Origin: Balneolaceae bacterium | Lineage (GTDB): Bacteria; Bacteroidota; Rhodothermia; Balneolales; Balneolaceae | Reading direction: 5' to 3' | NCBI GenBank assembly: GCA_017795005.1 | Contig: CP051242.1 | Coordinates: 2,008,976 to 2,072,975 of the forward strand | Length of the DNA stretch: 64,000 nt | Part shown: piece by piece, positions 9,279 through 58,687 of the stretch | Numbering within the stretch: position 1 is the stretch's first letter | How the letters are laid out: every line of letters begins with the position of its first letter | The notes under the pieces: model-generated | The model's input: the letters and a program-made list of their open reading frames with translations, nothing else | Told to the model about the DNA's origin: nothing | The model's database searches: none | Translations under genes and position numbers: made by a program

Positions 9279-10973
9279 TTAAATCTTAAATAATTTATTA
9301 TTCTCAGATAGTGTCAATACTTCATACTTCGAAAGATCAACAGTCTTAGGTAGTTTGTCTTTTAGAATTGGTGCAATGAATTGGGCATTAATACTATTAG
9401 ATACTTCACTCAGGACCTGAAGTTGGTTTCCATGAATGTTCTCAAGTTGATCATGCATAATAAAATGAAGACAGGGTATATCTATTTGATTACAAAATTG
9501 AATATAAGCCAAATCAAAAGCAGCAATTTGCCCCTTTTTCTTGCCTGTACCTAAGTTTCCTAAAACGTTTGTAATTTTTAAAGTATAAGCTCGATCATTT
9601 TTTTCTGGAACTAAGATAAATTGTTCGCCATATAGCTTCTCTGAAATTCCGGAAAAATATTTATTAAAAGTTAAAACTCTTTCGCTTAGCTTTTCATCTA
9701 GTGTAGAAAGATCTTCATTTATCTCATTTAGCTCTTGATCGATTTGATTAAGTTTATTTTCACTATTAGTAATCAATTCAAGTTGCTCTTCAAGTCCACC
9801 TTTTATTTTATATTTCTCATTAAGTTTTGTGATAACAATTTCTAATTCTTCAATTGCACCATTTTTATTAATTAATTTTGATAGACTATTATCTCTTTTT
9901 ATATACTCTTCTAGATTCTCTCTTAAACTTTTTATCTCATTTTCAATATTAGGTAATTCTTTATTTATAAAATAAAGACGTTCATTTATCATGCTATTAT
10001 GAAAATCTAGTAGGCTTTCAAAGTCACGAGTTATATTCTCAATTTTACTTTCAACTTCATCATAGAGTTCTTTTAGCTGATTTTTATCAATCTCGTGAAG
10101 TTGAAGTTGAAGTTTCTTTTTACTTTCAAGAACTATTTCTCTTCTTAATTCAAGCTTACTTACACTATTAGAAATAATATTAATTTCTTTTCTAAGGTCA
10201 TTTAATTCATCTAATATATTCTTGTGGCTATCATCAAGATTGAACATTGACTTGTTTTTCTCAAGCTCTAGAATATCTCTATTTATTATTCCTAGTGCTT
10301 GTTCAATTTCAGGTTTTGATCTTTCACGTTTTAACCTTTTTAATAAATCCTGTTCAGAAATTTTCGATCGAGAAAGTTTTTGTTTTCGTTCAGATGAGTC
10401 AGTATTGATTCCAAACCAGAACAAAAAAATTGCTTCATATTGTTCTAATGTAACGTTAGGATGGAGTACTTTTACTGTATTATTTAATTTTTCTTTTTCA
10501 TCTCTAATATTTCTAGCAATTATTTGCCTAAACGAAGGTTTTTTTACATTACTTTCAAAAATTAGTGATTTAAGTATTTCTGGATAGTCTTTTTTTAGTA
10601 TATCATTACCATTTACTTGTAACAACATATCGTTTCTTTGAAGGAAATTTCTTGTTATTACAATTCTATTTTCAGGGGTTTCTGAAAAATCACTAACTAA
10701 TTCAAGAGTAATAATTACATTGTTTTCTTTTAAGAAATTTTCAACTTCTGTATTAGTTTTAGATTTGAACTCTGTATCTTGATAAATGCTAAATCCGTTA
10801 GATCCTAAACAATAATCTACTAATCTTAGTACAGTAGTTTTTCCAACATTATTTCCTGATTCTTGTTTATTCCGTAAGTTTGTTTCGTCAACTATTAAAT
10901 TTAGCCCTTTTCTAAATTTAATATTCCTGATCTGCCGTTCTTCTAAGTCTACTTTTAGTCTTCCTAGGTACAT
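9279..10973 (-). CDS. ABC-3C system ATPase (DUF2326 / SMC-Rad50-like)
   Basis: The 564-residue protein is built like a short SMC/Rad50 ATPase. A P-loop lies at G40-NNVGKTT (40-47), followed by a long coiled-coil centre (about 190-430) rich in Glu, Lys and Leu. The C-terminal lobe contains GKKKGQIAAFDLAYIQFC and the Walker B-like CLHFIMHDQLENIHG, typical of DUF2326. In ABC-three-component systems this ATPase is thought to sense invasion, perhaps aberrant nucleoprotein, and license an effector. It is the last gene of a four-gene minus-strand operon. Its ATG at 10973 lies inside the preceding gene (56-nt overlap). The region is visibly AT-richer than its neighbours. Confidence 0.85.
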   Translation of the reverse strand: MYLGRLKVDLEERQIRNIKFRKGLNLIVDETNLRNKQESGNNVGKTTVLRLVDYCLGSNGFSIYQDTEFKSKTNTEVENFLKENNVIITLELVSDFSETPENRIVITRNFLQRNDMLLQVNGNDILKKDYPEILKSLIFESNVKKPSFRQIIARNIRDEKEKLNNTVKVLHPNVTLEQYEAIFLFWFGINTDSSERKQKLSRSKISEQDLLKRLKRERSKPEIEQALGIINRDILELEKNKSMFNLDDSHKNILDELNDLRKEINIISNSVSKLELRREIVLESKKKLQLQLHEIDKNQLKELYDEVESKIENITRDFESLLDFHNSMINERLYFINKELPNIENEIKSLRENLEEYIKRDNSLSKLINKNGAIEELEIVITKLNEKYKIKGGLEEQLELITNSENKLNQIDQELNEINEDLSTLDEKLSERVLTFNKYFSGISEKLYGEQFILVPEKNDRAYTLKITNVLGNLGTGKKKGQIAAFDLAYIQFCNQIDIPCLHFIMHDQLENIHGNQLQVLSEVSNSINAQFIAPILKDKLPKTVDLSKYEVLTLSENNKLFKI

Positions 10974-11241
10974 TTTTGCTAGTATATCTTTGGTTTGCTT
11001 GTCTTCTTTTTCTGTTGGGGGAGCCCCATCTTCGAGGTTTTACTGTATCAATAAGATCGATAAGGAAGAGCCAATCTAAAGCCAGTATAAATAGTTTAAG
11101 AGAAACTTCATGTTTTTTATTTACTAAATCATAAAGATCAAAAAACTCAGTTCCAGTATCATCATCAGCTAATTCATGAAGAATTAACCCTCCGATATAA
11201 TAGAGGCTATTTTTTGGATTTATTTCTTTAGACGTGATCAT
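10918..11241 (-). CDS. ABC-3C middle component
   Basis: This small protein of 107 residues sits between the ATPase gene and the C-terminal-domain gene. Residues 1-68 (SLYYIGGLILHELADDD, ... SLKLFILALDWLFLIDLID) match what I know of ABC-3C middle components: a small winged-helix-like adaptor ending in an LFL-x-x-(L/I)-I segment. The last 39 residues are strongly basic (PRRWGSPNRKRRQANQ...) and lie partly over the ATPase gene in another frame. That tail may be real or may follow a one-base frameshift. It overlaps the upstream gene by ATGA (11238-11241), which suggests translational coupling. Confidence 0.72.
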   Translation of the reverse strand: MITSKEINPKNSLYYIGGLILHELADDDTGTEFFDLYDLVNKKHEVSLKLFILALDWLFLIDLIDTVKPRRWGSPNRKRRQANQRYTSKNVPRKTKSRLRRTADQEY

Positions 11242-11822
11242 AATGTAGGAGGTCTTTCTAAAATATTACAGTTGATGAAAGAATCAACAAGTATTAAATA
11301 GATTGCGTCTTTAAGGTCAGTATTATTTTTGAAATTGGAACTATTTTTAACTTCTAAAAATAGCTCATTATAAATTCGTTCAATTATTTCATCAGAAAAT
11401 TTCTTTGCTAAAGTAGTTTTATCCAATTTATGTTCATGTTGTAGCTCTCCAATTACTTCTTCATACAAAGTTTTAATATGTCTTATAGTATTATTTTTTT
11501 TTGGAGATCCTTGAGCTTCAAGAGTATTGTAAATGTCAAATATAACACCATTGAGTTCTACATACATTTTAATTAACCCGTTATATTTAACAATAGTATT
11601 ATGATCTATTTTTTCTTGAATTACTGGGGGAGGGATAAACTCATTAGAAGATTCAGTTTTTTCCCTGAAAGTACTGGAAATTATATTTACTACTTCTGCC
11701 GTCGTGCTATATAAATTTCTATAACTAGTGCCTTCATATACTTTGGTAATATTATTGACCGTCAAATCATTGTCTGATTTATAATTATTACCAAATTTGT
11801 TTTTCTGGATTTGATCCGTCAT
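11238..11822 (-). CDS. ABC-3C C-terminal-domain protein with N-terminal G(D/N)N motif
   Basis: The 194-residue protein has two parts. Residues about 65-194 resemble the ABC-3C C-terminal domain: VIQEKIDHNTIVKYNGLI, IYNTLEAQGSPKKNN, then FINCNILERP at the end, as in family members ending in CKILExP. In most systems this domain is fused directly behind an effector. Here the N-terminus has no effector, only a short segment, FGNNYKSDNDLTVNNI (residues 10-25), resembling the C-terminus of the protein encoded just upstream. The start codon overlaps the upstream stop by one base. It probably links the ATPase/adaptor to a separate membrane effector. Confidence 0.75.
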   Translation of the reverse strand: MTDQIQKNKFGNNYKSDNDLTVNNITKVYEGTSYRNLYSTTAEVVNIISSTFREKTESSNEFIPPPVIQEKIDHNTIVKYNGLIKMYVELNGVIFDIYNTLEAQGSPKKNNTIRHIKTLYEEVIGELQHEHKLDKTTLAKKFSDEIIERIYNELFLEVKNSSNFKNNTDLKDAIYLILVDSFINCNILERPPTL

Positions 11823-12073
11823 TAATTCTGACTTTCCTTAGAATTGTTTATAGTCATATCTCTTCCAGAGCTAAAATTATCACCTGACTCATTCTCTTGA
11901 TTGGTAAAATTAACAGAACTTTCTTCTTTAGCAGTTATGTTATTTAAATTTTTTATCCTTGTCTTTAAATCGGAGTTCTTTTTTGCTTGAACAATATTTA
12001 CTATTAACGATAAGAGAGATACTATCCACCCTAAAAACTCGAAGTCTAAATTATCTACTATAAGACTAAACAT
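11822..12073 (-). CDS. Single-pass membrane protein, candidate ABC-3C effector
   Basis: This is the first gene of the ABC-3C operon and encodes 83 residues from the ATG at 12073. A TTG 13 codons upstream (12112) is an alternative start. One hydrophobic helix (about 10-30, FLGWIVSLLSLIVNIVQ) is followed by a short charged heptad-like stretch (KKNSDLKTRIKNLNN), a polar linker and the C-terminal motif SGDNFSSGRDMTINN (63-77). That motif pairs in sequence with the N-terminus of the next protein. I do not recognise a family. Small membrane proteins in such systems often act as membrane-disrupting effectors, which is inference here. Confidence 0.6.
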   Translation of the reverse strand: MFSLIVDNLDFEFLGWIVSLLSLIVNIVQAKKNSDLKTRIKNLNNITAKEESSVNFTNQENESGDNFSSGRDMTINNSKESQN

Positions 12074-12227
12074 GTAAAAATTAGGTTTGTTGTCAAAGAG
12101 AATAAGAAACAAAAAATAAACATTAGATGTTTAAAAATTTATACTTACGCTTATAAGAAATCAAGAAGTGGCATATGTCACTCAAAGCAAGTACTAAAAA
12201 TTGTTTGTACCAATCTTTGTACCATAA
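12074..12227. promoter_or_regulatory. Upstream region of the ABC-3C operon
   Basis: This AT-rich 154-nt stretch lies between the ABC-3C operon and the tRNA-Val terminator. It holds a near-perfect 14-bp dyad, GTGGCATATGTCAC (12168-12181, two mismatches), about 95 nt upstream of the first ATG. It also holds a direct repeat TTTGTACC at 12204-12211 and 12216-12223. The dyad is a possible operator. The repeat may be an integrase arm-type site left beside the tRNA. No recognisable -7/-33 promoter was fixed with confidence. Confidence 0.35.
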
Positions 12228-56488: not shown

Positions 56489-57121
56489 ATGTCGGATAAC
56501 AGTAACAACCTTACAAATACTTCCCCGCGGGAAAACGCATCAGCGAGCAGCATCGAAGATGACAAGTTCGTAGCGGATGCTCTCGCCGGAAATGAGGATT
56601 CGTACCGTAAACTGGTAGACAAATATGACCGCCCGATTTACTTCCACATCCGAAAGATGATCAAAGAGACAGAAATGGTGGAAGATCTGGTACAGGAAGT
56701 CTTTATTAAGGCTTTCAAAAATTTGCAGACCTATAGCAATGAATATGCTTTTTCTACCTGGTTATATCGTATTGCGACCAATCATACCATAGATTATCTC
56801 CGAAAGAAGAAGCTGCAAACCTTCTCCATTAATGATCCGATAAAAACCAAAGACGGAGAAGTAGAAGTTCAGCTTCCTGATGAAAGTTTTTCTACAGATC
56901 AACCAATCATCAAAAAAGAACGAAAAGCAATCGTGCAGGATGCCATTGCCAATCTTCCTGAAAAATACAAAGCGGTTATTCAACTCCGACACATGGAAGA
57001 ACTCAGCTACGATGAAATAGCTGATGAACTCGATCTTCCTTTAGGTACGGTAAAAGCCCATATCTTCCGCGCCCGTGAACTTCTGTATAAAGCTCTAATT
57101 GATAAGAAAGATAGGTTTTAG
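56489..57121 (+). CDS. ECF-type RNA polymerase sigma factor
   Basis: The 210-residue sigma factor has region 2 (YDRPIYFHIRKMIKETEMVEDLVQEVFIKAFKNL, then STWLYRIATNHTIDYLR) and region 4 (LPEKYKAVIQLRHMEELSYDEIADELDLPLGTVKAHI). An N-terminal extension of about 35 residues is Asn/Ser-rich. No anti-sigma gene is adjacent, which is common in this phylum. Target promoters are unknown. Confidence 0.9.
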   Translation: MSDNSNNLTNTSPRENASASSIEDDKFVADALAGNEDSYRKLVDKYDRPIYFHIRKMIKETEMVEDLVQEVFIKAFKNLQTYSNEYAFSTWLYRIATNHTIDYLRKKKLQTFSINDPIKTKDGEVEVQLPDESFSTDQPIIKKERKAIVQDAIANLPEKYKAVIQLRHMEELSYDEIADELDLPLGTVKAHIFRARELLYKALIDKKDRF

Positions 57122-57178
57122 GGAAATAATAGTGTTTGGGTTTGAGTTATGTGAAATACTATAACTTAACCAGAAACA

Positions 57179-57750
57179 ATGTTTCAAAAACTTCTACTCA
57201 TCTTTGCTTTATTTTTTTTTGTGTAATTGCTCTGTCTCAAAAAAATTTATTGACACAAAAAAAGAGAACGCAATAAGAAAACTCAATCTTGATATTGCAG
57301 GTAAAAAAGTTCAGATTTATAAAAATAATGGAGACCTGCTTGCTGTAAGTAATTCTCTCTTGATTACTCAAGATAGCCTGTTCTACACAGAAAATTATTC
57401 TACATCTGTTTCATTAAGTGATTTAGGTTATCTTAAAATACCTCCAAAAAATCCAGAATTGAGACTATTACCGGGCTTTACACTTTTTGCAACAGGATTA
57501 ATCTATGGAAGGTCAGGTAGTGAAAATGTAAGTCTTGGAGAAGCGTTGGGTAGGGCATATAATGGTTTTTTATTGATGTCTATTGGAGTAGTTGCCACAA
57601 CAATCGGAATAATTTCGAACAGGAGTAATTATTATTATTTCCAGGAGGAAGTTAATTTAAATCAAAGAAGCACAAATAAACCGCCTTGCAGGAACCCAAG
57701 AAGCCGAAGGAGATGCTAATTATTCTAATATGAGTAAAGGTACTAACTAA
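57179..57750 (+). pseudogene. Lipoprotein gene broken at a T9 tract and near its 3' end
   Basis: An ATG at 57179 opens a classic lipoprotein leader (MFQKLLLIFALFFF) but meets a stop after a T9 run (57212-57220). Removing one T joins it to LCNCSVSKKFIDTKK, continuing the leader through its lipobox into a frame open to 57719. A second shift seems present: dropping one A at 57659-57661 would continue as LIKEAQINRLAGTQEAEGD to a stop at 57750. The body includes GFTLFATGLIYG and LLMSIGVVATTIGI. I do not recognise the family. It could be phase variable, slippage-corrected, a true pseudogene or sequencing error. Confidence 0.7.
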
Positions 57751-58687
57751 GATTCCCCTTCACAATCTCCAGATTTCTTTCAAACCCCTCAAACCTCGTT
57801 CGTTTAACCGCACTTCCTTCGAAGATTGAATTGAATTCGTTAATCGTTAATTCACTGAATTGTCTTTCAGTTGCTTCCAGAACTTTTTGTCTTGGATGAA
57901 GATCAACAAACTGAGAAAGTTTGGCTTTGCTGTTCCAGGGGCATACATCCTGACAAATATCACATCCGAAGACCCAATTTTTAATGTCTGTATGGTATTG
58001 CTGATTTATTTCTCCTTTATGTTCGATGGTGAGGTAGGAGATACATTTCGTTGCATCCACTTTGTAGGGTTCATAAATGGCGTCGGTAGGACAAGCATCT
58101 AAACAAGCCGTGCAAGTGCCACAATGATCGGTTACAGGTGTGTCATATTCGGTTTCCAGATCAATGATCATTTCTGCGATAAAGAACCAGGAGCCCAGAT
58201 TTTTATTTAAAATGTTGGAGTTTTTTCCTACCCAACCCAATCCGGCTTTTACAGCCCATGCTTTATCAAGAACCGGAGCGGAATCCACAAAATACCGGCC
58301 ATCGATTCCTCCAACAAGTTCAGAAGTAAAATGGAACAACTCTTTTAGTTTCTTTTTAAGCACTTTGTGATAATCACGACCTTGAGCGTACTTTGCAATT
58401 AAAGGCTGATTTGTTATTCCAATTTGTTCATTATGTGAAGGGTGATGGTAACTCGCTAACAACGAGACCACGGTTTTTGAACCGGGAACGAGCAGGGTAG
58501 GGTCGACTCGCTTCTCGAAGTTATTCGCCATCCAGTCCATGGTACCATAACGATCTTCATCCAACCATTGAGCCAATCGTTCCGCTTCTGTATTTAAACG
58601 TTCTGCTTTTGCAAATCCGCAGGCATCAAAGCCCAGTTCGAGTGCATAATTTCGGATTAACTGCGTGTATGTCTGCTTGTTCATCAT
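57743..58687 (-). CDS. queG: Epoxyqueuosine reductase
   Basis: The 314-residue cobalamin- and iron-sulfur-dependent enzyme makes queuosine in tRNA wobble positions from epoxyqueuosine. Two 4Fe-4S clusters are set by CGTCTACLDACPTDAI and FGCDICQDVCPWN. The N-terminal block LGFDACGFAKAERL and the DUF1730 region FVDSAPVLDKAWAVKAGLGW are diagnostic. The extra leading Met (MMNKQ) leaves two start options. It overlaps the tail of the broken lipoprotein gene. Confidence 0.95.
   Translation of the reverse strand: MMNKQTYTQLIRNYALELGFDACGFAKAERLNTEAERLAQWLDEDRYGTMDWMANNFEKRVDPTLLVPGSKTVVSLLASYHHPSHNEQIGITNQPLIAKYAQGRDYHKVLKKKLKELFHFTSELVGGIDGRYFVDSAPVLDKAWAVKAGLGWVGKNSNILNKNLGSWFFIAEMIIDLETEYDTPVTDHCGTCTACLDACPTDAIYEPYKVDATKCISYLTIEHKGEINQQYHTDIKNWVFGCDICQDVCPWNSKAKLSQFVDLHPRQKVLEATERQFSELTINEFNSIFEGSAVKRTRFEGFERNLEIVKGNLS

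Follow-up and report, generated by a model that had tools for sequence, protein, structure and literature searches.

A one-base frame break at a nine-T run in the leader of a putative accessory lipoprotein gene of a Balneolaceae bacterium

A putative lipoprotein gene of a Balneolaceae bacterium appears to be interrupted by a one-base shift within its signal-peptide codons, where a run of nine T is found. The explanation that we favour, with about even confidence, is that recent and ordinary slippage has frameshifted a dispensable accessory gene, which would now be off and perhaps revertible. According to this explanation, a one-base change in the length of the T run, probably produced by ordinary replication slippage in the recent past, would put the gene out of frame, and this copy would then yield no exported lipoprotein in the cell. 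A return slip at the tract is possible, at published rates for runs of this kind. We see no sign, at the level of sequence, that the tract has been selected as a switch.

The frame break and an intact homologue

The window, that is, the whole stretch of 64,000 nucleotides analysed, belongs to a single contig of 3.75 Mb that is 99.5% complete. An ATG at position 57179 opens a leader reading frame that encodes MFQKLLLIFALFFFV before a stop codon (57179-57226, + strand). It is offset by one base from the main ORF, and the two frames diverge at a T9 homopolymer (57212-57220, + strand), a slippable tract lying inside the coding region and in the leader, as in contingency loci. The T9 run and the one-base offset between leader and body, both pointed out in the earlier note, are present in the sequence. 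The main ORF (57204-57719, + strand) has 171 codons from a TTG and a codon score of 14.3, and is one base out of phase with the frame of the ATG at 57179. It reads as the body of a small lipoprotein, with a Cys, then a hydrophilic region and glycine-rich hydrophobic segments. Past the tract, 165 codons are free of stops and their codon score is positive. The upstream neighbour encodes an RNA polymerase sigma-70 family factor (56489-57121, + strand; Pfam Sigma70_r2 and Sigma70_r4_2), and the convergent downstream neighbour encodes the epoxyqueuosine reductase QueG (57743-58687, - strand; Pfam QueG_DUF1730).

An intact homologue, whose existence the earlier note had left to be checked, was found by protein search in genome G312, with 31% identity over residues 3-169 at E 3.3e-24. 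It is a single open frame of 178 codons from an ATG, and the same protein is encoded on Gracilimonas mengyeensis contig NZ_FXTP01000003.1 (L053:4977-5513), in a genome of the same family. The homologue leader, MLQKLLLILCV, has 7 of its 11 residues in common with the out-of-frame leader at 57179. Compared with the start of the homologue leader over 11 residues, the leader at 57179 scores 32, while the rest of the 1,310 ATG-led, stop-free 11-mers of the window reach at most 21; by this comparison, the leader is no chance look-alike. Since the homologue has a closely similar leader and a body colinear with that of the ORF, the leader at 57179 and the body at 57204-57719 would most simply form a single gene, whose frame is lost at the tract or close to it. 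The G. mengyeensis gene, whose C-terminus is also similar, differs in being intact in one frame, in having a T run of 5 in its leader and in lying in another genomic neighbourhood.

In the homologue, Cys 17 follows a basic and hydrophobic leader, the lipobox being judged by eye from general rules. At our locus, the arrangement of signal peptide and Cys arises only when the leader and body frames are joined. We considered the TTG at 57204 as the true start and rejected it: six residues lead to the first Cys (eight to the next) without a basic n-region, and the homologue has the upstream leader. For annotation, an entry as a lipoprotein gene with an interrupted frame, belonging to an unnamed Balneolaceae family, is preferable to one for a short protein starting at TTG 57204. 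An AlphaFold model of the homologue, built on a two-row alignment, had a pLDDT of 45, too poor for a fold search.

A sparse family at a variable junction

By profile search, members of the family were found in 6 of the 92 genomes of the taxonomic family, own genome included, that is, in 5 of the 91 others. At the level of the order, the count is 7 of 128, again with the own genome included, and the additional match is weak. Weak matches elsewhere in the phylum (L015-L022 and G036) were left out of the member count, and one TAG counted in the G026 match was read, by comparing ends, as that gene's own stop codon. The leader reads open in all five of the other family members. The members have in common a hydrophobic leader, a Cys closely followed by a Lys, and hydrophobic segments containing glycine. 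For this ORF and those other members that were scanned, no Pfam or NCBIfam family rose above the curated cut-off. The gene is accessory, and the Balneolaceae lipoprotein family to which it belongs is sparse and unnamed.

The gene has no relative in the same-genus genomes G001 and G002, and it is absent from the sigma-queG junction in the relatives whose junction was read. This junction (window 57122-57742; compared in L004, L005, L006, L009, L010 and L110) is a variable site. It is just a short spacer in G002 and G014, whereas at this place G005 and G008 carry a different lipoprotein-like gene, and G001 holds about 4.8 kb of other genes. By eye, the genes of the G001-type insert were labelled as response-regulator-like, histidine-kinase-like and beta-lactamase-like. 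Because G001 and G002 contain no relative and the content of the junction differs between relatives, the gene looks dispensable. A search for a phage or plasmid origin of the gene gave no match.

The C-terminal tail and the age of the break

We think that the inactivation is recent because the body remains stop-free beyond the tract and scores as coding. A second one-base shift near 57660, also proposed in the earlier note, would if real make the decay older than one recent slip. Here the evidence is divided: the C-terminus of the homologue fits the ORF's own frame, whereas codon usage fits the other one.

The last 19 residues of the ORF align without gaps with the last 19 of the homologue, up to a common stop, and 4 of 1,882 stop-anchored 19-mers score as well against the homologue as this tail does. 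When 23 residues of the tail are aligned ungapped, the score is reached by 1 of 5,000 shuffles. In the DNA, 24 of 57 tail positions match the homologue, a figure equalled in 29 of 6,999 windows. The gapped local score is less striking, as 63 of 5,000 shuffles reach it. On the side of codon usage, an alternative C-terminal frame of 29 codons plus stop (57661-57750, + strand) has a codon score of 9.9 over 57661-57747, reached by none of 20,000 random open 29-codon segments and by none of 3,168 overlapping out-of-frame segments of window genes. The ORF's own tail has a codon score of -5.3, below all 51 of the 51 true gene tails compared.

An older pseudogene carrying two independent shifts, one at T9 and one near 57660, would agree with this strongly coding-type usage in the alternative frame and its reverse in the ORF's own tail. 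We nevertheless regard it as quite unlikely, because the C-terminus of the homologue fits the ORF's own frame, ungapped and to the same stop, the body contains no stop, and the alternative tail has no convincing relative. Against the homologue the alternative tail has no similarity (score 13, reached by 3,790 of 5,000 shuffles), and among 394 genomes of the phylum it matched nothing besides itself at E 0.05. We also considered it as a piece of another gene and rejected this: of two weak matches, the one inspected falls inside a longer gene but not in its frame. As an observation in its own right, this 29-codon frame opens right after an in-frame TAA and has no upstream start codon, with very gene-like codon usage.

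Runs of T and the origin of the frame break

Homopolymer frameshifts in leaders are a familiar route to losing or toggling a surface protein. As cited in PMC2831843, tracts of 8-9 A or T close to the start of a gene undergo deletions at about 1e-4, insertions being rarer. Given these published slip rates, both the loss of the frame and its return are plausible without selection. The tract resembles those of B. subtilis swrA and Campylobacter coli flhA as they are cited in PMC2831843, which likewise have 8-9 A/T near the 5' end and a one-base frame switch. However, switching was measured at the swrA and flhA loci, whereas the present locus is represented by one sequence and homologues lack a comparable tract: the longest T run in five homologue leaders is 5. 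As far as sampled, the tract is therefore private to this lineage.

The genome contains 86 T9/T10 runs (76 T9 and 10 T10). Open frames that score positive for codon usage hold 42 of them, counting this one, which is in frame from the TTG. When all 86 were examined for frame breaks, 16 candidate rows came up, and only the present gene (two rows, L073) was judged by eye to be interrupted. The least clear of the other rows, L082, is a 65-codon ORF that has a T9 close to its end; the 71 codons that follow, in another frame, look weakly gene-like. In five further genes (L023, L036, L065, L074 and L090), a T9/T10 lies in frame within an open N-terminal leader; T runs in leaders can thus reflect a Phe-rich composition. 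T9 is not over-represented in the window: it occurs 3 times, where shuffles predict 10.3.

Assemblies often contain homopolymers miscalled by a single base, and this could have happened at the tract in a gene that is in fact intact. The body, which looks intact by its homologue match and its codon score, is consistent with such an error, and we give it an appreciable though minor probability. On the other hand, the genome stands in that one nearly complete contig, and at the 41 further T9/T10 runs that fall in genes the coding frame is uninterrupted. Moreover, 42 of the 57 predicted window genes match an 80 kb stretch of G001, and all 42 are colinear in one frame and approximately full length; the remaining 15, the lipoprotein gene among them, have no match in those 80 kb. 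Since none of the 42 comparable genes is frameshifted relative to G001, a generally error-rich assembly is improbable, although a miscall at a single tract could still have occurred.

The earlier note had suggested a phase-variable gene. Its idea that a slippable T tract in the leader interrupts a lipoprotein gene is supported by the intact homologue; phase variation itself finds no support in the homologue leaders, whose T runs are 5 at most. The note's own caution, that two separate shifts would point to decay or sequence error, keeps some weight. A selected contingency gene of a Balneolaceae species, switched by poly-T and caught in the off state, would fit a T9 that is long enough to slip and sits in a leader where a change of one unit toggles the frame. 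It would also fit a protein that is accessory and probably exported, and tracts close to the start of genes are a theme familiar from PMC2831843. Still, we hold this unlikely: besides the short T runs of the homologues and the single sequence of the locus, five other genes of the genome hold T9/T10 leaders in frame, and no second gene broken at a T9/T10 run turned up in the genome. A limited search of the literature listed no paper on phase variation in Balneolaceae.

Slippage could also act on the transcript: some of the mRNA would then regain the frame at T9, and the gene would be expressed despite its DNA frame. As at the 9A/9T transcriptional slippage sites of Baranov et al. 2005 (PMC1088944), a run of nine T stands where two frames of one gene meet. 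The same paper proposes that 9T runs are slippage-prone and that broken ORFs joined there may not be pseudogenes, and the window contains fewer T9 runs than its shuffles do. We consider this very unlikely, however. In contrast to the sites of Baranov et al. 2005, the run is not conserved in homologues and the frame relation is unsuited to the prevailing single-base insertions: in E. coli and Buchnera, slips at A/T runs are mostly one-base insertions (PMC5574713), and a +1 insertion does not join the leader and body frames. Moreover, RNA folding around T9 is no better than in shuffles (z -0.17).

An imperfect inverted repeat surrounds the tract (57204-57224 and 57253-57273; arms of 21 nt, 86%), with T9 facing an A7 run. 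A ribosomal frameshift signal or RNA hairpin was considered and rejected: the repeat is present, yet its fold does not surpass that of shuffles and Rfam returned nothing at gathering scores at the locus. A promoter and terminator scan there gave background levels. The case has its main bearing on annotation, and it would matter more only if reads had mixed tract lengths.

Another T9 run of the genome (11494-11502) lies inside the CTD10 gene of an ABC-three-component cluster (9279-12112, - strand). This cluster, which encodes a DUF2326 protein and a CTD10 protein and has no match in the same-genus stretch compared, is perhaps a defence island.
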